From an uncultured Paracoccaceae bacterium (GTDB lineage: Bacteria; Pseudomonadota; Alphaproteobacteria; Rhodobacterales; Rhodobacteraceae): DNA of 64,000 bases. The notes beneath the pieces were generated by a model. It made no database searches. It saw nothing but the letters and a program-made list of their open reading frames with translations, and was not told where the DNA came from. The DNA is taken from contig CANNFQ010000003.1 of the NCBI GenBank assembly GCA_947503925.1, positions 286,485 through 350,484 on the forward strand. The letters are read 5' to 3'. Both the position numbers and the translations under genes were made by a program. Below are positions 15,623 to 46,825 of this stretch, one piece after another (positions within the stretch are counted from its first letter, which is position 1; each line of letters starts with the position of its first letter).

Positions 15623-16495
15623 TTGAAACGATTTGCCTGCCTTCCATCCTTCATCGGTGCCTTAGCGCTTTTGGCCGGGTTTGTGGGTCCGCAAGGCGCC
15701 GCGGCCGAAGAAAAACCGATCTTTGACCAAGTGGTCGAGATCGTTGGGTCAGAACGCGGCACGGTTCGCAAATGGATTTACGCCCCAAAAGTGACCGTGA
15801 TCCATGAGGGCGACCCGCAGCGCGATCAGATCAACAGTATCGTCGAGATGGTCAATGCCCAGATCCCTGATTTTCCCGGTGTCGGTGCCATCGAGTTTTT
15901 CGACCTGTCCCAATTTGATCGCCGCCTTGCCGGTAACACCCATTTCCGCATGCCCCGTGTCGATTTTGACGGGGTCGAGGGCAATATCGTCCGCGCCTTG
16001 TTCAAGGGCGAAGAAGAGGCGCAGAATATCGTTCTGACCGGCAGTATCTTTATCTTTCTGACGGGGTTGGAAACCGGCATCACTCTGGGCGCGCTAACAC
16101 AAAGCACCCAATCGCTAAGCCGTCAATTCGCGGAAGGCGCGCAGACAAAATGCTATTTCCATCTGATGTCCAAGGATGATGAGTTGCGGGCAGGTTTCAT
16201 CTTTATCAATAACGAGGACGCCCATACCCCTATCGCTGAATGCCTGTACGAGGAATTCATGCAAACGCTGGGTCTGTTAAACGACTCGCGTGGGTCATCT
16301 GTCTTTACTTTCGACAATTCCGGCGACGTGCGTGCCGACCGCACACCGGATTTCCGACTTTTGCAGGCGCTATATGATCGTCAGGTTGCGGCCGGTGATG
16401 CGGCAGAAAAAGTGGCTCAGCTTTATCTTGGGTTGGATACGGCTTATCAGCTCACGTCGGCGCCGTCAGAAACTGCGGTGGCACAAGATCAGTGA
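15623..16495 (+). CDS. Exported DUF2927-like protein
   Basis: A secreted or periplasmic protein of about 290 residues of unknown function. Signal peptide: KRFACLPSFIGALALLAGFV, then GAAA. The C-terminal half shows the pattern AECLYEEFMQTLGLLNDS followed by FTFD and FRLLQALYDRQVAAGD, typical of the DUF2927 family of Rhodobacterales. The start chosen is a TTG at 15623 with CGGAG eight bases upstream; TTG 15605 or GTG 15614 are alternatives. Its 3' end overlaps kptA on the other strand by 44 bases. Confidence 0.75.
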   Translation: MKRFACLPSFIGALALLAGFVGPQGAAAEEKPIFDQVVEIVGSERGTVRKWIYAPKVTVIHEGDPQRDQINSIVEMVNAQIPDFPGVGAIEFFDLSQFDRRLAGNTHFRMPRVDFDGVEGNIVRALFKGEEEAQNIVLTGSIFIFLTGLETGITLGALTQSTQSLSRQFAEGAQTKCYFHLMSKDDELRAGFIFINNEDAHTPIAECLYEEFMQTLGLLNDSRGSSVFTFDNSGDVRADRTPDFRLLQALYDRQVAAGDAAEKVAQLYLGLDTAYQLTSAPSETAVAQDQ

Positions 16496-16985
16496 GCCAG
16501 ACGCCATTATCGGCCTGAAAGAACTGGTGGCCCAATTGATGCATGTCAAACGCATCGACAGTCAGAACGACAGGTTTGCCATGCCGCATCCCAACATTAG
16601 TTGCAGTATCCGCATCCAGTGACAGATGCACCTGCTGCCTGCGCCCGGGTTTCAGCCCCTCTGCCATGATCACCGCAACAGATTTCGCGGCCGTTCCGTG
16701 AAACAGCGTCGCGGGTGGCTCCGCTGGGATCAACCCCAATTCCACTGCGACAGAGTGGCCCTGCGCCGCCCGTATCCGGGTACCATCATTCGAGAGAGTG
16801 AACCGTTTCTTATCAGAGGTCGCGACAATCTGTTCGAGCGTCGCCCGGTCGATTTTCTGGCCCGCCTTAGCGCAGCCTGCTAACAGATCGTCGATGGGAA
16901 CCCATCCCTGCGGGTCCAGTGTCACCCCGGCCTTTTCGGGTGCGTGGCGCAGCACAAGGCTGAGAAATTTGCTTTGTTGTTTCAT
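16452..16985 (-). CDS. kptA: RNA 2'-phosphotransferase (KptA/Tpt1)
   Basis: A 177-residue Tpt1/KptA enzyme. The family moves an internal RNA 2'-phosphate to NAD+, producing ADP-ribose 1'',2''-cyclic phosphate. The N-terminal winged-helix-like lobe (SKFLSLVLRHAPEKAGVTLD, with RH) and the NAD-binding lobe (LFHGTAAKSV, GLKPGRRQQVHLSLD, TNVGMRHGKPVVLTVDA) contain the family's Arg-His and His-Gly-Thr motifs. It is the last gene of the minus-strand RNA-repair operon, 15 bases after rtcB. RtcB itself leaves no 2'-phosphate, so KptA suggests a second kind of damaged or ligated end is handled here. Confidence 0.93.
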   Translation of the reverse strand: MKQQSKFLSLVLRHAPEKAGVTLDPQGWVPIDDLLAGCAKAGQKIDRATLEQIVATSDKKRFTLSNDGTRIRAAQGHSVAVELGLIPAEPPATLFHGTAAKSVAVIMAEGLKPGRRQQVHLSLDADTATNVGMRHGKPVVLTVDAFDMHQLGHQFFQADNGVWLTDLVPPQFLTAPT

Positions 16986-17000: not shown

Positions 17001-18413
17001 CTAACGCCGCCCCTTCCTTTTCTTCTTGTTCATCCAGAATGGCGGCACATCACCCGCCATCATGCAGCCGTATGGATCAATATAGTCCTCGATCTCGGCC
17101 AACCCGAACTGGTCGATCTGACGCACCACATTGGCCGCGTTCTTGTAAGACGACGGCAATTCCGACGCGTCGATCCCGCCCGCAGGGAACCGGATATCAA
17201 GGCCCTTTGTCTCGGCCTCAAGCGCCTGCTGCGCCGTCATCTCGCCCATTCTGCGCTTGTGTTCGGAGCGCGAAAAGTTGCGCCCCGCCCCGTGCGGCGA
17301 AAAGCCCAGCGCATGATCCGCATCCTTGCCACGCACAACCAAAACAGGTTCTGACATGTTCAGCGGGATCAGGGTCAGGCCTGTCGCATCCTGCGCATAA
17401 TCGCCCCAGGCCGGGGTTGCCCCCTTGCCGTGGTAATACAGATCGCCGCGCCGGAAGACGAAGTTATGTTCGTTCCAGAACCGGTCACCGGGCTGCGCGC
17501 CGGACCCTTCCACAGTCGCCTGATGGATCGCGTTATGGTTCGCCTTGGTCCACTTGCGGATCAGTTGCAGGGCGGCCCAATAGTCCCGGCCGTCCTGCGT
17601 ATCCGCCGGGATCCAGGCGTTCTGCTTGAGCGTATCGGGTGACAGTTTCTTGCGGTATTTTTCGGCCACCTCCATCCCCAATTTGTAAAGCACCGCCCCC
17701 GGCCCGCGAGAGCCGTGGTGCGTCACAATTGCCGTGCGCCCGGTGTTGCGGGACTTGCCCACAAACAGGAAATGGTTGCCATCGCCCTGGGTGCCCAGAT
17801 GTTCGACCGCCATGCGCAAGATATTGGGATTGTTCAGGAAAGGGTTTTCCCTGAATTCATCCATCAGCTTTTGCGCCATGGTAAAGCGTTTGCCATTTGG
17901 GCGACCGCCGGGGCCAAAATGCGTGACCTTTTCTGCCGCATCCAACACCGCCTTGGGGTCAATCTCGCCCAGATCGGTCATCATGACTGAACAACAGATA
18001 TCGGCCGAGTGCATGCCCGGATGAATCGCGTTTTTCGCCGCAACAACGCCGCCCACCGGGATCGTCCCGACAGGCCCCGCAGGGCAGGCATCCGGCATCA
18101 CCGCAGCGGCCTGAACCGTTGGCGTGCGTATGACAGCGATCATCGTTTCGCGCACCTGCGCGAGGTTCTGAACCTCATCAGGGTCATCGGAAGCTTCGAT
18201 ATTGAAATGAAACGGCACATCGCCCGCCTTCTGCAAAGGCAGGGTGGGCGGTGGTGGCGGCGGCTTCATCCTGTCCAGTTTTGCCTTGATCTGGTCAAGC
18301 TCATAACCTGCCGCAGCAGCCGCCTGCGCAATCTCCAATGCGCGCCCGAACTCCTTGCCGGGGATGTGGCCCCATTCCTTGAGGGTCTCGCCTGTGATGT
18401 CTACTTTTGTCAT
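17001..18413 (-). CDS. rtcB: RtcB-type RNA ligase
   Basis: A GTP- and Mn-dependent ligase that joins RNA 3'-phosphate or 2',3'-cyclic phosphate ends to 5'-OH ends, about 470 residues. Visible active-site signatures are the metal cysteine and histidine region (AIHPGMHSADICCSVM), GDGNHFLFVG, HHGSRGPG, NHNAI, the PHGAGRNFSRSEH guanylylated-His motif, and a C-terminal SSYKNAANVV. A Pro-rich linker (MKPPPPPPTLP) occurs near residue 50. The start 18413 forms an ATGA overlap with the stop of the upstream Cys-rich gene; an upstream in-frame ATG at 18446 is less likely. The C-terminus is unusually basic. Confidence 0.96.
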   Translation of the reverse strand: MTKVDITGETLKEWGHIPGKEFGRALEIAQAAAAAGYELDQIKAKLDRMKPPPPPPTLPLQKAGDVPFHFNIEASDDPDEVQNLAQVRETMIAVIRTPTVQAAAVMPDACPAGPVGTIPVGGVVAAKNAIHPGMHSADICCSVMMTDLGEIDPKAVLDAAEKVTHFGPGGRPNGKRFTMAQKLMDEFRENPFLNNPNILRMAVEHLGTQGDGNHFLFVGKSRNTGRTAIVTHHGSRGPGAVLYKLGMEVAEKYRKKLSPDTLKQNAWIPADTQDGRDYWAALQLIRKWTKANHNAIHQATVEGSGAQPGDRFWNEHNFVFRRGDLYYHGKGATPAWGDYAQDATGLTLIPLNMSEPVLVVRGKDADHALGFSPHGAGRNFSRSEHKRRMGEMTAQQALEAETKGLDIRFPAGGIDASELPSSYKNAANVVRQIDQFGLAEIEDYIDPYGCMMAGDVPPFWMNKKKRKGRR

Positions 18414-18850
18414 TTGGTGTTTTCGCTTCTTCTTACGCCAATCCATCTTGTCGTTTTCGGATCGGGTTGGAACGTGTGGTACTCATAGCAGTCCGAGAAC
18501 TGCGTGCCGACATGGGCGCCGCATGCGCAAATCCGATTGGGCCCATCAATGCCGGAGATATCGCAGCATCCCGCCAACCGTTTTGTGATTGGCGTCAAAC
18601 CAACAGCTTCCGCCAGATCGTCGAGGTGAACCCATGCCATATTTGCCGGAATGGTCGCACGGTGCATTTTTCCCTGCTTCACAATCGCATCCTTGTCGAG
18701 CAGCAGAACATGCCCGCGCGGCGTGACGGCTTCACCTTCAGCGAAGGTACACAAATTCTCCATAGCGTCCGAACTTGTAATCGGCGTCAGTGCTTTGGTC
18801 AGATCAGCGTCACAAGCGCTGCACTTCAGTAAGATGACCTCATTATTCAT
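18410..18850 (-). CDS. Cys-rich unknown protein of the RNA-repair operon
   Basis: I do not recognise this 146-residue protein. It has an N-terminal CxxC (LKCSACDADL), a central mixed domain (MHRATIPANMAWVHLDDLAEAVGL) and a second Cys cluster near residues 93-119 (GCCDISG, RICACGAHVG, SDCYEYH), so a zinc-binding fold is plausible. It begins 30 bases after the last Y-RNA-like module and overlaps rtcB by 4 bases. It is therefore translated in step with the ligase and probably works with it. GAGAG precedes the ATG; a second ATG lies two codons in. Confidence 0.75.
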   Translation of the reverse strand: MNNEVILLKCSACDADLTKALTPITSSDAMENLCTFAEGEAVTPRGHVLLLDKDAIVKQGKMHRATIPANMAWVHLDDLAEAVGLTPITKRLAGCCDISGIDGPNRICACGAHVGTQFSDCYEYHTFQPDPKTTRWIGVRRSENTK

Positions 18851-18880
18851 ATCCGTTCACTCTCAATTCAAACCAAGACC

Positions 18881-19008
18881 GGAACAAGGCATTTGCAGGA
18901 TGATTTTCCGCCACCGGATTGCTCCGGGCTGGGGTTGAACCAGCACGGGCCTTGTGGCCCAGGCCCTGAAAGGCCTCGCGTCTACCTGTAATCCTGACAT
19001 TCATTTCC
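18881..19008 (-). ncRNA. Y-RNA-like module Y8 with a permuted class II (Leu-like) tRNA domain
   Basis: Read on the minus strand. Outer stem GGAA/TTCC; internal loop AATG against GCCTTG; inner stem CAGGAT/ATCCTG; then TACA. The enclosed domain is a tRNALeu-like sequence opened at the D-loop. GGTAGACGC comes first, then an anticodon-like arm (AGGCC/GGCCT), a long variable arm (GGGCC-ACAA-GGCCC), a T arm (GCTGG-TTCAACC-CCAGC), and an acceptor stem CCGGA/TCCGG capped by a GCAA tetraloop. The 5' half of the D arm, TGGCGGAAAA, comes last. It is the module nearest the protein genes and 30 bases before the next start codon. Confidence 0.75.
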
Positions 19009-19018
19009 AAAATCTGGG

Positions 19019-19095
19019 TCCGGGGGACAAGGGAAGCGTGAGATGCCTTTCGGCGACCGTTTTCTGCGATGTAATCCCACGGGCATTCCCCCGGA
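19019..19095 (-). ncRNA. Y-RNA-like module Y7, no tRNA domain
   Basis: Outer stem TCCGGGGGA/TCCCCCGGA (9 bp, perfect); internal loop ATGCC against CCCTTG; inner stem CGTGGGAT/ATCTCACG (8 bp with one G-U); then the shared TACA. The short head contains a GCC-GAAA-GGC hairpin in place of a tRNA-like domain. Both stems differ in sequence from the other modules yet still pair. It lies 10 bases from Y8. Confidence 0.78.
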
Positions 19096-19242
19096 TGTGT
19101 TTCCTTTCATTTGTGCGAGGTGATGAGGGCAGTGCCCGGACCTCGGGGTGGGTGCGAAGCGCCCTCCCCATGGGGGAGGTCCGTGCGCTGCCCGGCGATG
19201 CCGGGCGGAACATTCCCTCCGCGCGCCACGCTCAAATTCATT
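19096..19242 (-). other. Structured spacer between tRNA-Gln-like gene and Y7
   Basis: 147 bases without a gene. It holds a perfect 17-base hairpin GCCCGGC-GAT-GCCGGGC (19190-19206). A longer inverted repeat, CGGACCTC/GAGGTCCG (19137-19183), encloses further GC-rich palindromes such as CCCCATGGGG. It does not carry the TACA or ATGCC marks of the Y modules. It may be an RNA processing or stability element; its role is unknown. Confidence 0.5.
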
Positions 19243-19318
19243 TGGTTGGAAAGGCAGGGCTCGAACCTGCGACCCACGGTACCAAAAACCGTTGCTCTAC
19301 CAACTGAGCTACCTTCCA
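19243..19318 (-). tRNA. tRNA-Gln(UUG)-like gene with encoded CCA
   Basis: A complete 76-base cloverleaf: acceptor TGGAAGG/CTTTCCA (one G-U), D arm GCTC-AGTTGGTA-GAGC, anticodon arm ACGGT-TTTTGGT-ACCGT, variable GGGTC, T arm GCAGG-TTCGAGC-CCTGC, discriminator A, CCA. Anticodon positions 34-36 read TTG (Gln). Base 37 is G where tRNAGln normally has A, and the discriminator is A rather than G, so decoding as Gln is uncertain. It begins five bases after Y6 and so could serve as an RNase P cut point for it. Confidence 0.88.
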
Positions 19319-19323
19319 ATGGT

Positions 19324-19386
19324 GGAGGACAAGGGTTCAGTGAGACGCTGACATTTTCAAAGATGTAGTCCCACAGGCATTCCTCC
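19324..19386 (-). ncRNA. Y-RNA-like module Y6, short, between two tRNAs
   Basis: Outer stem GGAGGA/TCCTCC (perfect); internal loop ATGCC against CCCTTG; inner stem GTGGGAC/GTCTCAC (7 bp, one G-U); TACA. The head is only a small ACAT/ATGT hairpin. It is 63 bases long and lies seven bases from the CCA end of the tRNA-Pro-like gene and five bases from the tRNA-Gln-like 5' end. Ordinary tRNA processing would therefore release it. Confidence 0.78.
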
Positions 19387-19393
19387 GGTTGGG

Positions 19394-19470
19394 TGGTCAG
19401 GGATAGAGGATTCGAACCTCCGGCCTCTGCAATCCGAATGCAGCACTCTACCAGACTGAGCTAATCCCTG
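19394..19470 (-). tRNA. tRNA-Pro(CGG)-like gene with encoded CCA
   Basis: A complete 77-base cloverleaf: acceptor CAGGGAT/ATCCCTG (7 perfect pairs), D arm GCTC-AGTCTGGTA-GAGT, anticodon arm CTGCA-TTCGGAT-TGCAG, variable AGGCC, T arm GGAGG-TTCGAAT-CCTCT, discriminator A, CCA. Positions 34-36 read CGG (Pro), but base 37 is A where tRNAPro carries the conserved (methylated) G37. C1-G72 and A73 agree with Pro identity. Not an ordinary housekeeping tRNA by its body, which looks like the generic TAGCTCAG type. Confidence 0.88.
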
Positions 19471-19559
19471 GCCGTTTTGATCCCAAACGGGGCCTTGGTG
19501 GGCGACGCGGTTTTAGCATCGCGCATTTCGGTCCCGCAAGGGGGTGATCATGATGCCCC
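19471..19559 (-). other. Spacer between Y5 and the tRNA-Pro-like gene
   Basis: 89 bases with no gene. It includes a hairpin directly before the tRNA 5' end (CCGTTT ... AAACGG on the minus strand) and a GGGACCGAAA stretch like the CCGAAA spacer seen between other modules. No TACA-marked stem could be paired, so I do not call a module here; it may be a decayed one. Confidence 0.4.
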
Positions 19560-19684
19560 GGCGACAAGTATCTGGCGAAACGTTACGCGCTCTATCCATC
19601 TGAGCTATCCCGTCATGGTAACGGGAGTGGGATTCGAACCCACGACCTCGACATTCGTAGTGTAGTTCCACCAAGGCATTCGCC
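19560..19684 (-). ncRNA. Y-RNA-like module Y5 with permuted Arg-like tRNA domain
   Basis: Outer stem GGCGA/TCGCC; ATGCC loop against ACTTG; inner stem GGTGGAAC/GTTTCGCC; TACA. The head is a tRNA opened in the anticodon loop with halves in reverse order. First comes CTACGAA (as in the ACG-type Arg loop), then variable AGGTC, T arm GTGGG-TTCGAAT-CCCAC and acceptor TCCCGT. The joint TACCATG still contains CCA. Then come ACGGGA, TA, D arm GCTC-AGATGGATA-GAGC, and CGTAAC back into the stem. The two acceptor halves pair perfectly over 6 bp as a closed hairpin. Confidence 0.88.
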
Positions 19685-19698
19685 AGAGCTGTTTCGGG

Positions 19699-19836
19699 TC
19701 CGGCAACAAGGGATGGGTGAAACGAAGGGGAACTGCTCTACCAGCTGAGCTACATCGCTCCGGTTGTCCCGGCTGCGATGGCGGGGTTCGAACCCGCGAC
19801 CAATTCATTAATGTAGTTCCACCAGCATTTGCCGGA
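19699..19836 (-). ncRNA. Y-RNA-like module Y4 with permuted tRNA domain
   Basis: Outer stem TCCGGCAA/TTGCCGGA (8 bp); loop ATGCT against CCCTTG; inner stem GGTGGAAC/GTTTCACC; TACA. Opened at the anticodon loop. The 3' anticodon strand GAATT comes first, then variable GGTC and T arm GCGGG-TTCGAAC-CCCGC. The acceptor CATCGC/GCGATG is closed by a nested CCGG-GACAA-CCGG hairpin instead of free ends. Then TA, D arm GCTC-AGCTGGTA-GAGC, and AGTTC, which pairs with GAATT (one G-U). Confidence 0.88.
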
Positions 19837-19848
19837 AGTTTCAGGTTC

Positions 19849-19992
19849 GGCGACAAGGATAAAGAAACAGTTCGGGGTCCCGCCCCCTTCCCTGCGGGGA
19901 AGGTTTTCCGTCTGGGCGCCGGCAAGGAGAGGAGTTGAACCTACTCGGATGATCCCGCTTGGTGCTGCAATGTAGTTCCTTTGGCATTCGCC
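19849..19992 (-). ncRNA. Y-RNA-like module Y3 with degenerate tRNA-like head
   Basis: Outer stem GGCGA/TCGCC; loop ATGCC against TCCTTG. The inner stem AAAGGAAC/GTTTCTTT is the clearest compensatory change in the set, because four pairs differ from GGTGGAAC/GTTTCACC and all still pair. TACA follows. The head (about 100 bases) has a T-loop-like GG-TTCAACT-CC with an imperfect stem and a long hairpin CCTTCCC-CGCA-GGGAAGG inside a CGCCC/GGGCG stem. The tRNA resemblance is weak. Confidence 0.8.
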
Positions 19993-20006
19993 AGATTATC
20001 AAGGCT

Positions 20007-20097
20007 TGGCAACAAGGGTTTGGTGAAACACCCCCTCGCGCGCATCCCTGCGGGACGACCTTCGAGAGCCCTGATGTAGTTCCACCGGCATTTGCCA
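20007..20097 (-). ncRNA. Y-RNA-like module Y2, hairpin head
   Basis: Outer stem TGGCAA/TTGCCA; loop ATGCC against CCCTTG; inner stem GGTGGAAC/GTTTCACC; TACA. The head is a simple stem, CTCTCG/CGAGGG enclosing CGTCCC-GCA-GGGATG, with no T or D arm. Relative to Y1, the outer stem has G-C replaced by A-T with pairing kept. Confidence 0.82.
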
Positions 20098-20117
20098 TGC
20101 TGTTTTCTCTTTCGGTT

Positions 20118-20242
20118 CCGGCGACAATCGGGGGCGAAACGATAACTGAGCTACATCATTTCCATGATGGCGAGAGTTGAACCCGCGACCTCTGATCCAT
20201 TGGACCAGCGCTCTACCCTGTAGTTCCACCGGCATTCGCCGG
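20118..20242 (-). ncRNA. Y-RNA-like module Y1 with tRNA domain permuted at the D-loop
   Basis: Outer stem CCGGCGA/TCGCCGG; loop ATGCC against GATTG; inner stem GGTGGAAC/GTTTCGCC; TACA. The head reads GGGTA-GAGC (3' half of D arm), anticodon-like arm CTGGT-CCAATGG-ATCAG, variable AGGTC, T arm GCGGG-TTCAACT-CTCGC, acceptor CATCAT/ATGATG capped by a GGAA tetraloop, TA, and GCTC-AGTT (5' half of D arm). The tRNA is therefore cut exactly between AGTT and GGTA of the D-loop. It is the first module after rsr. Confidence 0.88.
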
Positions 20243-20381: not shown

Positions 20382-21938
20382 TTAAACATCCACGGCCTCG
20401 ATCTGGCCAACCCAGTGGTCCGGGCCCATCTCCCCGCTCGAGAAAGCGGCGATCTGGTCAAAGACACTGTCCGAGAACCCGCCGATGTTCAGCACATCGG
20501 CACGCTCTTTCGCCTGGGTCGTCCCGTATGGGGCGATATCGATGCAGACCAGTTTGGCCTTCGGGTTCCGCTTTTTCAGCTTCTCCCACATTTGCACCAT
20601 CACCGTCCCGGCATTGCCGTACTGGTTATGCGCCCAGGACTGGTTGTCCGAGACGATGATCACCAGATCCGGGGCACGCCCCTTGGCCAGCAACCATTCC
20701 AGCGGTGCCGCGCAGTTGGTCCCGCCGCCCCACTGATCCGCCAAACGCGCCGCGTTTGTCAGGATCGTGTCGCGTGGTTCCAGCCGCACATCACGCACCT
20801 TCACCTCGAACGGCAGCACCGTTGCGGATGGGTTGCGCCGCAGCACAGCCGCAGACACCAGACCAGCCACATCCACGAACCGTGTCGCTGTTGTGGCCCC
20901 CTTGCGGTAGCCGGTCACAGCGCCGGACATGGACCCGGACACATCCGGGGCAACAACCACCTGACCGCGCAGCTTTGGTACGTTTTGCACCGAAAGCTCC
21001 ATCGCGTCATGCAGCGCCTCCCGGATATCCTCCGGCATCTCCGCAGACATGGCCTGGTAGGCCGTCATCAGCTGGTACGGGAACACCCGTGCCTTGGCGA
21101 TCAGCGCCGGATCACGCAGACGATCTGCGATCATGCGCCGCATCTTCGGCAGGGCCAGAACCCCGTGCCGCAGGAACGTGTTCAGGTTCATACGGGTCAT
21201 CTGCCAGGATGCGTTCTCAGCAATCTTTGCCCACTGTTTCGTAGACAATTCAAGCTGCGTCAGCATCTGGAACGGAACGTTTGGCACGCGGCCACGGCCC
21301 GTTTTCTTGAACCGCAGGAAGTCCTGCACATTTTCCGGCAGCAATGCGACGTCACATGGCCGACCGATGATCCACGCAAACAGCGCGTCTCGCGCCTTCG
21401 AGGAAGGCTTCGGGTGGACCATCTTGATCACATCCGCCAGCGACGGGTCGTTGCCGACATTCGCCTGCAGGATCGCCCGGTCGGCCGCTTCGTTCAGCCA
21501 ATTGGCTACCAGCCGCTTTGGCGCAGAGCCAAGCGATTTCCGCCCGGTTTGCCCCGACCGCATGATCTGCACAAAGGTGCGCAGCATCTTGCCGTTATCC
21601 ACAACACGCCCAAAGACGCGCTGGAACAGGATCGGGTCACGGGCCGACAGAACCGCCAGCAACAGGGCGGGCATATCTTTCATATGGCCCTGTTGCCGGG
21701 TGTAGACCGCTGCCTTTGCAAGAAAGGACGGATCAACCTTTTGCGCCAATTCCAGCGTGCGGGACAGTTCCTGCATCGGGTCCTGGTAGAATGTCTGCCC
21801 AAACGTGCCGGTCATCGCCAGCTGCGCCAAGGCATGCGCATCGGAATAGGTATAGGCCGGTGCCCCCGCCAGATTCGTAGCAGAAGCTGCCGGAAGCAAC
21901 CGGCCTTTCATCGATGCAAACACGGATTTGTTTGCCAT
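20382..21938 (-). CDS. rsr: Ro60-like TROVE/vWA RNA-binding protein (Rsr)
   Basis: A 518-residue bacterial orthologue of the Ro60 ring protein, which binds Y RNAs and misfolded or damaged RNA. The TROVE HEAT-repeat domain spans about residues 20-325 (YTRQQGHMKDMPALLLAVL, FGRVVDNGKMLRTFVQIMRSG). The vWA domain from about 326 has the MIDAS motif DVSGSMSG at D332/S334/S336, with GGGTNCAAPLEW and VIIVSDNQSW. It is the first gene of the minus-strand operon, divergent from rtcR and directly followed by the Y-RNA-like array, its expected RNA partner. Confidence 0.96.
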   Translation of the reverse strand: MANKSVFASMKGRLLPAASATNLAGAPAYTYSDAHALAQLAMTGTFGQTFYQDPMQELSRTLELAQKVDPSFLAKAAVYTRQQGHMKDMPALLLAVLSARDPILFQRVFGRVVDNGKMLRTFVQIMRSGQTGRKSLGSAPKRLVANWLNEAADRAILQANVGNDPSLADVIKMVHPKPSSKARDALFAWIIGRPCDVALLPENVQDFLRFKKTGRGRVPNVPFQMLTQLELSTKQWAKIAENASWQMTRMNLNTFLRHGVLALPKMRRMIADRLRDPALIAKARVFPYQLMTAYQAMSAEMPEDIREALHDAMELSVQNVPKLRGQVVVAPDVSGSMSGAVTGYRKGATTATRFVDVAGLVSAAVLRRNPSATVLPFEVKVRDVRLEPRDTILTNAARLADQWGGGTNCAAPLEWLLAKGRAPDLVIIVSDNQSWAHNQYGNAGTVMVQMWEKLKKRNPKAKLVCIDIAPYGTTQAKERADVLNIGGFSDSVFDQIAAFSSGEMGPDHWVGQIEAVDV

Positions 21939-22083
21939 TTCACTCTCGTCCTTCTTCGTTTCAGTGATGCTGTTTTCGTGGATTTTGAGGGTTGGGCGAA
22001 GAAAAATCGCATTCGCCTTAAGTCACTGTTTTTATTGGAGTATTTTTGGCAAAATGATAATGACTACAGAATTTACGATTTAC

Positions 22084-22103
22084 ACGGATATTACTTTATC
22101 CGT
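22084..22103. promoter_or_regulatory. Inverted repeat in the rsr-rtcR gap, candidate RtcR site
   Basis: ACGGATA (22084-22090) and TATCCGT (22097-22103) form a perfect 7-bp palindrome with a 6-base spacer. It lies 12 bases before the rtcR ATG and about 145 bases upstream of rsr. Position and symmetry fit an activator-binding site for the divergent operon and for self-control of rtcR. The whole gap (21939-22115) is AT-rich compared with its surroundings. I found no GG-N10-GC pattern of a sigma-54 promoter on the rsr strand in it. Confidence 0.55.
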
Positions 22104-22115
22104 ATGGATAATCTT

Positions 22116-23705
22116 ATGAAAAAGAATGTTGTCATCGGCTTTCTGGGGACGAATCTGGACGCGGGCAAGCGCCGCCGCTGGCGTCCCTCTGTGCAGATCA
22201 ATGATCATCCTGATTTTCCTATTACGCGACTGGAATTGCTGCATGATCGGCGCTGGACGGGGCTTGCCACGAAAATCAAAGGCGAGGTTGAACGCGCCCA
22301 TCCCGAGACCGAAGTCTTGCTGCACGAGGTCAATGTCCGCGATCCGTGGGATTTTGAGGAGATGTACGGCGCGATGTTCGATTTCGCCCGTGATTATGGT
22401 TTTGACGATGAGCGCGAGGAATATCACGTCCATCTGACCACCGGCACGCATGTCGCCCAGATCTGCTGGTTCCTGCTGACAGAGGCCCGGCATATCCCGG
22501 CCAAGCTGGTTCAGACCGGCCCACCGCGCGGCGATGATACCGGCCCCGGAACGCTTCAGATCGTTGATCTGGATCTGTCGCGCTACAACGCGCTGCAACA
22601 GCGGTTTGATCTGGTCGCCAAGGAATACAACACCCTGCTGAAAGGTGGGATCGACACGAAGAATGCTGCTTTCAACGCGATGATTGATCGGATGGAAGTT
22701 GTGACATCTAATTCCGATGCCCCATTGCTGCTGATGGGGTCGACAGGAACAGGAAAATCGGACCTTGCCGCCCGGCTTTATGAATTGAAACTGCAACGTC
22801 GTCGTATCAAGGGCCGCTTGGTCCATGTGAATTGTTCGACGCTGAAGGGCGAACGCGCCATGTCCACCTTGTTTGGGCATCGCAGGCAGGCCATTCCCGG
22901 CGCCGGTGCGGACAGGCGGGGCTTGCTGCAAGAGGCTGATGGCGGGGTGCTGTTTCTGGATGAGATTGACGAACTGGATCTCGATGAACAGGCAATGATC
23001 CTGCATGCGGTTGAGACGGGGAAATACCTGCCGCTCGGGTCGGATTACGAGGTCACAAGCCGGTTTCACCTGATTGCGGGGGCAGGGCGTGATCTGGCGG
23101 CTTTGGTGGCGAATGGCCGGTTCCGGGCTGATCTGTTTGCGCGATTGAACCTCTGGACCTTTCATCTGCCCGCCCTGCGCGACCGTCCCGAGGATATTGA
23201 CCCCAATATTGCCTATGAGCTGGCACGAGTGGAAAAGCTACTGGGGCAACAGTTGAGCTTCAATGCGGACGCATTCACCCGCTATCAACGTTTTGCCATA
23301 GATCCGGGCACCGATTGGCCAGGTAACTTTCGCGATCTGTCGGCATCGGTGCAACGCATGTGTACCTTGGCCCCGCGGGGGCGGATCACCTTGGCAATGG
23401 TGGAGGAAGAGATTGCCACCCTGCGCAAGACATGGCGCGATGCGACGCGCGACCCGGATCTGCAGCTATTGCAGGCGCATCTGGGTGACGCAGCGCAGGA
23501 GATCGACATCTTTGATCAGGTGCAATTGGCGGCTGTGATCCGCATCTGTCAGAAAAGCGCGAGCCTAAGCGCGGCTGGTCGCACATTATTCGCCGCCTCC
23601 CGCGCGGCCAGGGCAAGCCGTAACGACGCGGACCGGCTGCGCAAATATCTCGACAAGTTTGGTCTTGATTGGGCGCGATGTCAGGCGGATGCCGTTTCGG
23701 GATAA
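22116..23705 (+). CDS. rtcR: RtcR, CARF-AAA+ activator of the RNA-repair operon
   Basis: A 529-residue regulator. The N-terminal CARF-type sensor (about 1-185; IGFLGTNLDAG, WDFEEMYGAMFDFARDYGF, HVHLTTGTHVAQICWFLL) is the part that in Salmonella senses cyclic-phosphate-ended tRNA fragments. The AAA+ domain has Walker A GSTGTGKS (208-215) and Walker B GVLFLDEIDEL. The C-terminal helix-turn-helix is SLSAAGRTLFAASRAARASRN. The GAFTGA sigma-54 contact loop is replaced by QAIPGA (258-263). ATG 22116 is chosen; ATG 22104 is possible. The frame is open much further upstream, but that part is antisense to rsr. Confidence 0.95.
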   Translation: MKKNVVIGFLGTNLDAGKRRRWRPSVQINDHPDFPITRLELLHDRRWTGLATKIKGEVERAHPETEVLLHEVNVRDPWDFEEMYGAMFDFARDYGFDDEREEYHVHLTTGTHVAQICWFLLTEARHIPAKLVQTGPPRGDDTGPGTLQIVDLDLSRYNALQQRFDLVAKEYNTLLKGGIDTKNAAFNAMIDRMEVVTSNSDAPLLLMGSTGTGKSDLAARLYELKLQRRRIKGRLVHVNCSTLKGERAMSTLFGHRRQAIPGAGADRRGLLQEADGGVLFLDEIDELDLDEQAMILHAVETGKYLPLGSDYEVTSRFHLIAGAGRDLAALVANGRFRADLFARLNLWTFHLPALRDRPEDIDPNIAYELARVEKLLGQQLSFNADAFTRYQRFAIDPGTDWPGNFRDLSASVQRMCTLAPRGRITLAMVEEEIATLRKTWRDATRDPDLQLLQAHLGDAAQEIDIFDQVQLAAVIRICQKSASLSAAGRTLFAASRAARASRNDADRLRKYLDKFGLDWARCQADAVSG

Positions 23706-45787: not shown

Positions 45788-46825
45788 CTATTCGAAATTA
45801 TAGGGCGCACCGGCTTGGTTGATGACGCTGTTATATTCTTTGAAGATGTTGACGATCTTCTGATGCACTTCGCCTTCCTGTGCCACTTCTTCCCAGAACT
45901 CCTTGGCCGCGTTTTCAACCTCAGCCCATTCCCCTGCAGGGACCGAACGCAGTTGCAGCTTGTCGCCATTGGCGCGCAGTGCCGCCTCACCGCCCCAGTA
46001 CCACTGGTTACGATAGGTGTGACCGGCCTCAGTCCCGGCCATGACAACCGCCTTAAGGTGTTCGGGCAGGTCGGCCCAGCGTTCCTCGTTCACGAACCAT
46101 GATCCAATCCATGCACCCGAGATGTTGTTGGTCAGGAAATAGTCGGTGACGTCAGCCCAACCCACGGTGTAATCCTCGGTGATGCCGGACCATGCCATGC
46201 CGTCCAGTTCGCCTGTCTGCACCGCAACTTCGGCATCCTCGTAAGGAATATTGACCGGAACAACCCCGAATTTCGACAGGAAGCGGCCCGCAGTCGGGAA
46301 AGTGTAAAGGCGCAAACCATCAAGATCGGCCACGCTGGTGATCTCTTTCTTGGTGTTGAAGTTGCAGGGGTCTTGACCGGCTGCCGACAGCCATTTGACG
46401 CCAACCTTCGCGTATTCCTCTTCCCAGATTTCTTTCAACCCATACTGGTTAAACAGGACCGGCACATCGAGGATATGCTTTGTCGCAAAGGGGAAATAGC
46501 CGCCAAACTGCTGCAACGGCGTCGGTGAGGCCATGGAATCATCGTCCGAATGTACCCCGTCGATCGTGCCACGCTGCAAGGCCTGGAACAGCTCGCCGGT
46601 TGGAACAATCTGGTCGGCATAGAATAGTTCGATCTCCAGTTCACCATTTGCGGCGGTGTTGATATAGTCGATGACCGGCTTGGTGACATGTTCGCCCAGC
46701 GCGGAACCGGCATAAGTCTGGAAACGCCATTTGATCGCTTCTTGCGCACGCGCAACAGTCGGTGCGGCCAATGTTGCCGCCCCGGCGAGGCCCGCGTTTC
46801 GGATGAAATTACGTCTTGTTGTCAT
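45788..46825 (-). CDS. TRAP transporter substrate-binding protein (DctP family)
   Basis: A 345-residue periplasmic receptor with a Tat-type signal (MTTRRNFIRNAGLAGAATLA). Typical DctP features: WRFQTYAGSALGEHVTKPV, AQALQRG-like LFQALQRGTIDGV, the Arg-carboxylate contact region DLDGLRLYTFPTAG, and PYEDAEVAVQTGELDGM. Family ligands are mostly carboxylates. The catabolic genes around it suggest the imported compound is the cluster substrate. It belongs with dctQ-dctM upstream on the same strand. Confidence 0.93.
   Translation of the reverse strand: MTTRRNFIRNAGLAGAATLAAPTVARAQEAIKWRFQTYAGSALGEHVTKPVIDYINTAANGELEIELFYADQIVPTGELFQALQRGTIDGVHSDDDSMASPTPLQQFGGYFPFATKHILDVPVLFNQYGLKEIWEEEYAKVGVKWLSAAGQDPCNFNTKKEITSVADLDGLRLYTFPTAGRFLSKFGVVPVNIPYEDAEVAVQTGELDGMAWSGITEDYTVGWADVTDYFLTNNISGAWIGSWFVNEERWADLPEHLKAVVMAGTEAGHTYRNQWYWGGEAALRANGDKLQLRSVPAGEWAEVENAAKEFWEEVAQEGEVHQKIVNIFKEYNSVINQAGAPYNFE

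Follow-up and report, generated by a model that had tools for sequence, protein, structure and literature searches.

What are the repeated, stem-bearing modules that follow the rsr gene of an uncultured Paracoccaceae bacterium, and what might a cell gain from having them, interspersed with tRNA genes, inside a predicted RNA-repair locus? The window examined here is a stretch of 64,000 nucleotides (nt) from contig CANNFQ010000003.1 (positions 286,485 to 350,484), and the modules, Y1 to Y8, are read on its minus strand, immediately downstream of a gene for a Ro60-like protein (Rsr). A sequence-only reading had already proposed that they form a tandem array of Y RNA-like elements. The answer that we now consider probable is that they are eight tandem predicted Y RNA genes, each likely to bind Rsr through a shared stem, and that four of them carry permuted tRNA domains devoid of an ordinary anticodon loop.

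Eight tandem modules beside rsr

The array was delimited with a pattern scanner that requires ATG directly next to an outer stem, TAC directly next to an inner stem, and TTG followed by the 3′ strand of the outer stem. On the minus strand it found eight modules, at 18879–20242, and no others; the plus strand of the whole window gave a single weak match, at position 46796, with an inner stem of 4 base pairs (bp). The tandem array of eight is thereby borne out, and the span first given for it, 18881 to 20242, holds in position and extent, its exact ends shifting by at most two bases. The outer stems (6–9 bp), the inner stems (6–8 bp) and a TACA present in all eight modules likewise agree with the sequence-only reading. 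Of the internal loop, given there as AATG(C) against CTTG, the 5′ side starts with ATGC in seven of the eight modules and the 3′ side ends with CTTG in seven, the deviations being ATGAATGT in Y8 and ATTG in Y1. When modules are folded alone, both stems form in Y1, Y3, Y4, Y5, Y6 and Y7.

As judged by comparison with Rfam, the common stem is of the YrlA type. Two modules, Y4 (19699–19836) and Y5 (19556–19688), align with the YrlA model (RF02553, the Salmonella/Deinococcus type) over its entire length, positions 1–114 of 114, with E-values near 1e-14 and scores of 66.5 and 66.9 bits, respectively, the curated gathering score being 69. Lower scores were obtained for Y1 (20118–20242; 36.2 bits), for Y2 (20007–20097; 34.0 bits), which has no recognisable tRNA-like domain, for the short module Y6 (19324–19386; 24.4 bits) and for Y3 (19848–19993; 19.1 bits). 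The Rfam search returned no YrlA match for Y7 (19019–19095), a short module known from the scanner, or for Y8 (18879–19010). Searched with the YrlA model, the whole genome yielded four sites, all of them within the array (150 of 251 candidates scored). The array shares with YrlA the AUGC/CUAC/CUUG stem signature of the Rfam consensus, a tRNA-like domain, and a position beside rsr and rtcB; it differs in comprising eight tandem modules. YrlB (RF02565) also comprises short Y RNA-like RNAs adjoining rsr, and Y6 matches it weakly. Membership of the short modules in that family was nonetheless rejected, as Y6 attains 21.3 bits, far under the gathering score of 97. As in bacterial Y RNAs generally, the array lies beside a Ro60/Rsr gene, whose end is 139 nt upstream of Y1, and the AUG/UAC/UUG stem signature occurs in all eight modules, being itself a scanner requirement.

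The arrangement recurs in relatives. Eighty named alphaproteobacterial loci, the best 80 of 389, were fetched via their rsr genes and scanned at a score of at least 11. Since a match presupposes that both stems are paired, the pairing of these stems in the loci is not independent evidence; pairing of T and acceptor stems is no scanner requirement. At least one module is present in 78 of the 80 loci and at least two in 70. The number per locus is zero in 2 loci, one in 8, two in 12, three in 28, four in 13, five in 10, six in 4 and eight, the maximum, in 3. These counts are lower bounds, since the scanner misses short modules that have GAGTACA in place of A(C/T)TAC and sit in gaps of about 104 nt after tRNA-Asn. 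Among 295 sampled genomes of the family, rsr occurs in 15, the window's own genome included, and all 14 others carry modules, one to six each. Half of 22 viral loci have one to three scanner matches, and the other 11 have none. The surroundings of TROVE genes in four genomes outside the family (L184–L187) gave no modules on either strand; with a scanner tied to the ATG/TAC/TTG signature, this null result cannot be taken as evidence of a lack of Y RNAs there. The TROVE search behind that sample, which found 4 of 398 genomes, missed the window's own genome and so undercounts rsr.

Dense head-to-tail repeats with variable inserts could, at face value, be chance hairpins or unrelated repeats, such as a mobile element array, that happen to adjoin rsr. 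We regard this as exceedingly improbable: the opposite strand of the 80 loci is devoid of scanner modules, every plus-strand match in them sits downstream of rsr, YrlA matches in the window's own genome are confined to the array (150 of 251 candidates scored), and the alignment of one module class, described below, covaries. Y RNAs beside a Ro60-type gene, as the sequence-only reading had it, remain the best account of the YrlA matches of Y4 and Y5, the Rsr-like neighbour, and the modules 3′ of rsr in 78 of 80 relatives.

Circularly permuted tRNA domains

What distinguishes the modules from one another is the material hung from the stem. Text rules were used to assign 274 modules, 266 from the 80 loci and eight from the window, to classes: 102 opened in the anticodon loop (class A), 29 opened in the D loop (class B), 51 resembling Y3 (class C), 55 short, and 37 other. 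The rules err at the margins. Three modules that resemble the D-loop-opened form (L113 no. 1, L129 no. 2 and L132 no. 3) fall outside class B, and one that resembles a permuted tRNA (L119 no. 2) is put in class C.

Comparison places the permutation at two points. Y4 and Y5 have the canonical YrlA topology: in both the Rfam alignment and a de-permutation test, an anticodon-type stem closes the tRNA-like domain and is followed in order by the T, acceptor and D arms. A review likens YrlA to the D, T and acceptor arms, treats tRNA-mimicking Y RNAs as already known, and reports tRNA-type base modifications of YrlA by DusA and TruB (PMC8394870). Y1 and Y8 are opened in the D loop instead. Unlike in the Rfam model, where the anticodon stem closes the domain, their domain hangs from the D loop, the D stem closes it in the 29-module consensus, and an extra anticodon arm is kept, joined in Y8 by a variable arm; they are therefore classed as variant Y RNAs rather than canonical YrlA. 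The hairpin at the anticodon position has a 7-bp stem and a 3-nt loop in the fold of Y1, and a 4-nt loop in that of Y8.

Swapping the halves of the inserts back into tRNA order improved the best global alignment with a cellular tRNA in all 121 class A and B modules tested, the score averaging 27.5 as opposed to 6.5 in the order as read, the sole order used for comparison. Ten of the original 131 modules lacked a T-loop motif or acceptor hairpin and were dropped. A nearest isotype, defined by a best score of at least 18 and a margin of 4, was assignable in 36 of the 121 (Leu 11, Asn 7, Arg 5, Asp 5, Met 5, Thr 3), leaving 85 without one. Within the window, the nearest cellular tRNA is Asn for Y4, Arg(ACG) for Y5, and Leu for Y8, whose top five matches are all Leu; for Y1 no isotype stands out. 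Moreover, N(N)CCA opens the linker between the acceptor strands in 33 of 89 class A modules (13 of the 102 were dropped), with 3.9 expected and at most 9 in 200 shuffles; Y5 has ACCA in this linker. We read the motif as a probable remnant of a tRNA 3′ end.

The D-loop-opened form is the less familiar of the two, and its evidence is comparative. RNAalifold, applied to the 29 class B modules, returns the Y stem followed by a D stem that closes a multiloop with the T and acceptor arms. Pairing holds in 98.4% of 762 alignment cells (shuffled, 73.3%), and 23 of 27 pairs have changed on both sides (shuffled mean, 17.4). Such two-sided changes affect 3 of 4 pairs in the T stem and all 5 in the acceptor stem, in neither of which do the rules for selecting the class fix the pairing, and 2 of 3 in the D stem, where the rules fix some letters of the arm. 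The covariation score is 0.654 against a shuffled 0.219 (standard deviation 0.013; none of 500 as high), a result that is not a probability because the rows are related; controls with slid partners, which preserve that relatedness, give 0.037–0.109. Lone folds of Y1 and of modules from L117, L133, L152 and L089 show the D-loop-opened topology with a hairpin at the anticodon position. Hairpins capped by GNRA or UNCG tetraloops number 12 in the 29 modules, nine in the anticodon arm and three (L111, L114 and L154 no. 6) in what appears by reading to be the variable arm. Class B occurs in 25 of 81 loci, the window included, among them Labrys, Mesorhizobium and Methyloligella records.

Class C is represented in the window by Y3, with an inner stem of AAAGGAAC/GTTTCTTT, a T-arm-like hairpin and a second hairpin. 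An alignment of 31 of the 51 class C modules has 32 predicted pairs, 18 of them changed on both sides; one of the 18 belongs to a T-arm-like hairpin that has a GGTTC motif.

In algae and archaea, tRNA genes with a circularly permuted order give rise to functional tRNAs. The modules resemble such permuted genes (PMC3978253) in placing the 3′ half ahead of the 5′ half and in joining the acceptor strands by a linker; they differ in sitting within a Y RNA stem and in having an anticodon loop that is missing or interrupted. It might be supposed that the modules likewise mature into functional tRNAs, the halves being joined by RtcB, whose gene is at the same locus, and the CCA of the linkers would fit. 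This outcome is disfavoured and very unlikely. No 7-nt anticodon loop can be derived from the window's domains, the loops of Y1 and Y8 at the anticodon place being 3 and 4 nt and that of Y4 and Y5 interrupted; GNRA or UNCG caps occur in other members; and the acceptor stems of the Leu-like modules have, by reading, just 4–5 bp. With the anticodon loop missing or interrupted, a decoding tRNA is not expected. A phage Y module (L161:6832–6970) retains in its insert CTTTTAAG, a sequence shared with the tRNA-Lys(UUU) anticodon loop.

tRNA genes within the arrays

Real tRNA genes, as called from sequence, also stand between the modules, likewise on the minus strand. The two embedded tRNAs reported by the sequence-only reading proved to be tRNA-Pro(CGG) (19394–19470) and tRNA-Gln(TTG) (19243–19318), the latter beginning 5 nt after Y6. 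Between tRNA-Gln and Y7 lies a 147-nt interval rich in G+C (19096–19242), which is strongly similar in L076 and L082 and gives no scanner match. The suggestion that eight modules with two tRNAs are unusual is upheld in part: 3 of the 80 relatives also reach eight modules, and tRNAs are embedded in 40 of them.

These 40 loci hold 60 array tRNAs, a count that omits ten further tRNA calls, nine lying beyond the arrays and one on the opposite strand. All but one are specific for Asn, Gln, Lys or Pro: Asn(GTT) 22, Gln(TTG) 14, Lys(TTT) 9, Lys(CTT) 3, Pro(TGG) 8, Pro(CGG) 3, and one unclear. Neither this restriction to four isotypes nor the circular permutation of the inserts at two points figured in the sequence-only reading. 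Of the 22 genomes whose arrays include Asn, 18 have at another site a full-length housekeeping-type Asn gene, 95–100% identical to that of the window's genome, and 13 of the 14 with array Gln have a housekeeping-type Gln gene 91–100% identical to the window genome's. For these two isotypes, the ones tested out of the four, the array genes are mostly divergent extra copies. In the window's genome, the array tRNA-Gln(TTG) is one of two copies that differ, and Pro(CGG) is found only in the array, with Pro(TGG) and Pro(GGG) genes elsewhere. By reading, position 37, next to the anticodon on its 3′ side, is A in all 11 array Pro tRNAs of the 80 loci; the window's array Pro tRNA also has A37, and the two other Pro tRNAs of its genome have G there. 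Isotypes, copies and the A37 pattern together suggest selection on identity. Two array tRNA-Asn bodies (L138:7713–7788 and L112:7685–7759) are unlike the common array Asn; that of L138 resembles an array tRNA-Gln bearing a GTT anticodon.

One could hold, more conservatively, that the locus carries an ordinary set of YrlA- and YrlB-type RNAs, in which the D-loop-opened and class C modules are copies that have drifted and have no function of their own, and the tRNAs are historical passengers. Two modules do score near the YrlA gathering score, the same-genus locus L062 has fewer modules and no tRNA, and 40 of 80 loci have no array tRNAs. Drifted copies, however, would not readily account for D-loop-opened modules in 25 of 81 loci with compensatory changes in the T stem, the acceptor stem and most of the D stem, nor would passengers be expected to keep to four isotypes, and we judge this view unlikely, although it is far from negligible.

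The spacing of the tRNAs invites a different proposal, namely that they serve solely as processing punctuation: RNase P and 3′ nucleases would free the Y RNA ends, and decoding identity would be irrelevant. Among array tRNAs preceded by a Y module, 42 of 58 begin 3–13 nt after it. On a phage contig (L167:3179–4658, beside rsr), three Y modules start 0 nt after a tRNA and are followed by gaps of 3–5 nt. Such rsr-bearing phage contigs have tRNA clusters into which, in L167, Y modules are intercalated as in the bacterial arrays; they differ in that L167 has 35 tRNA calls of many isotypes, compared with four isotypes in the bacteria. Punctuation alone would not, though, explain why 59 of 60 array tRNAs are confined to Asn, Gln, Lys and Pro, or why isotype-typical acceptor ends look kept (by reading); furthermore, equally short gaps often separate Y modules with no tRNA between them, 63 of 188 Y–Y gaps being at most 15 nt. 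A role confined to punctuation is possible but doubtful.

The predicted repair locus and its proposed function

The genes around the array place it in a predicted RNA-repair context. Read along the minus strand, rsr is followed by the array, a gene for a 146-residue protein, rtcB and tpt1; rtcR is divergent from rsr. The rsr gene (20382–21938), directly upstream of the array, encodes vWA_Ro60 and TROVE domains; its product matches the solved Rsr structure 2nvo (E 3e-22) and scores 72.6 bits, under the NCBI Rsr equivalog cut-off of 900. The 146-residue cysteine-containing protein (18410–18850), between array and rtcB, has no Pfam or NCBIfam match. The RNA ligase gene rtcB (17001–18446; PF01139, E 1e-34) is followed by tpt1/kptA (16452–16985; PF01885, E 4e-49), for an RNA 2′-phosphotransferase. 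On the plus strand, rtcR (22116–23705, start picked by reading; PF06956, E 4e-71) encodes a sigma-54 activator with an RtcR sensor domain. In the stretches from the 80 relatives, some of which end early, tblastn found rtcB in 72, tpt1 in 11 and the 146-residue protein in 7. In enterobacterial operons rtcA stands beside rtcB; here Tpt1/KptA occupies that place. It is an odd partner for RtcB, and RtcB joints carry no 2′-phosphate.

The divergent rtcR and downstream rtcB are as in an RtcR-controlled operon, and the order of rtcR and the rsr array was read in relatives too; no RTC domain match indicative of RtcA was found in the genome. A canonical sigma-54 promoter before rsr was rejected, there being nothing above shuffled background: sites scoring at least 0.85 occurred in none of 50 stretches and in 2 of 50 shuffled ones, and the consensus had no match near rsr with at most one mismatch, in what is a weak test built on a simple consensus. 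The intergenic region between rtcR and rsr has an inverted repeat, CGGATA-N6-TATCCG (22085–22102), a candidate RtcR binding site by reading. Before rsr (21995–22017, minus strand), a leader hairpin GGCGAATGC...TTCGCC looks, by reading, like a stripped Y outer stem.

Among the closest known systems is the rsr-yrlBA-rtcBA operon of Salmonella under RtcR, which likewise has rtcR divergent from rsr, Y RNAs, and rtcB; the present locus differs in that no RtcA was found in the genome, Tpt1/KptA lies by rtcB, the Y RNAs form an eight-module array, and tRNA genes lie inside it. There, tRNA fragments regulate the operon, YrlA fragments were not detected, and a role as competitive inhibitor of the nuclease was suggested (PMC7790460); in Deinococcus, Rsr is tethered to PNPase by a Y RNA (PMC7790460, PMC8394870).

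We infer Rsr binding, processing, and RtcR control of the array. The shared stem of each Y RNA would bind the neighbouring Rsr. Ordinary tRNA-processing nucleases would divide a long transcript of rsr and the array at its embedded tRNAs, and the freed Y RNAs may gate Rsr and tether it to tRNA-handling or RNA-decay enzymes. The tRNA-like domains could tie up factors whose recognition sites are the tRNA elbow and the acceptor stem, and could not themselves be cleaved at an anticodon. As RtcB rejoins broken tRNAs, pools depleted by tRNA cleavage might be refilled by the extra Pro and Gln tRNAs, and induction through RtcR by tRNA fragments would be carried over from Salmonella.

Several observations weigh against this account. 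The top YrlA scores fall slightly below the gathering score, and a full tRNA-like domain is missing from Y2, Y3, Y6 and Y7. The lone minimum-energy fold of Y2 has no inner stem and that of Y8 has four arms but no Y stem, so that their pairing rests on comparison between modules; the lone folds of Y8 and L142 no. 2 also close differently from the D-loop-opened form, and the latter is without a D stem. The de-permutation gain has the as-read order as its only control, and the D stem of class B, with letters partly set by rule, is not independent evidence. One of five covariation measures, further pair types, barely exceeds its shuffles (48 versus 42.2; 6 of 500 as high). Loops of at most 6 nt occur in 23 of 24 measured class B arms (five dropped), but 22 of 43 real tRNA entries folded in the same way have them as well, and mimics and tRNAs cannot be told apart by minimum-energy loop size alone. 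The restriction in isotype may come partly from shared descent, and half of the loci, together with the same-genus L062 array, have no array tRNAs; Y modules packed without tRNAs between them would need another processing route. Finally, a sigma-54 promoter signal upstream of rsr is absent from the 50 stretches scored with this simple consensus (mean best site 0.685, shuffled 0.697).

A bolder and only tentative elaboration is a mend-mimic-replace cassette. Alphaproteobacteria would make Y RNAs from cellular tRNAs by permutation in the anticodon or D loop; as isotype-flavoured, uncleavable decoys for Rsr, these might occupy anticodon nucleases or sort tRNA halves, and the extra Asn, Gln, Lys and Pro tRNAs of the same transcript might replace exactly those destroyed by the inducing nuclease.

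In titles and abstract beginnings among the matches listed, with primary papers outside the comparison, there was no description of the D-loop-opened form or of the embedded tRNAs. The D-loop-opened permutation, class C, the eight-fold array and the isotype-restricted tRNAs exceed the literature so compared, and priority is not claimed.

Under the favoured reading, that of Rsr-binding Y RNAs with permuted tRNA domains, the locus would yield tRNA look-alikes and replacement tRNAs together with the predicted repair enzymes for broken RNA. Arrays that combine tRNA genes of four isotypes with several permuted topologies, in which the anticodon loop is compact or interrupted, make the question testable, and they show Y RNA structures that extend past the single YrlA model of Rfam.

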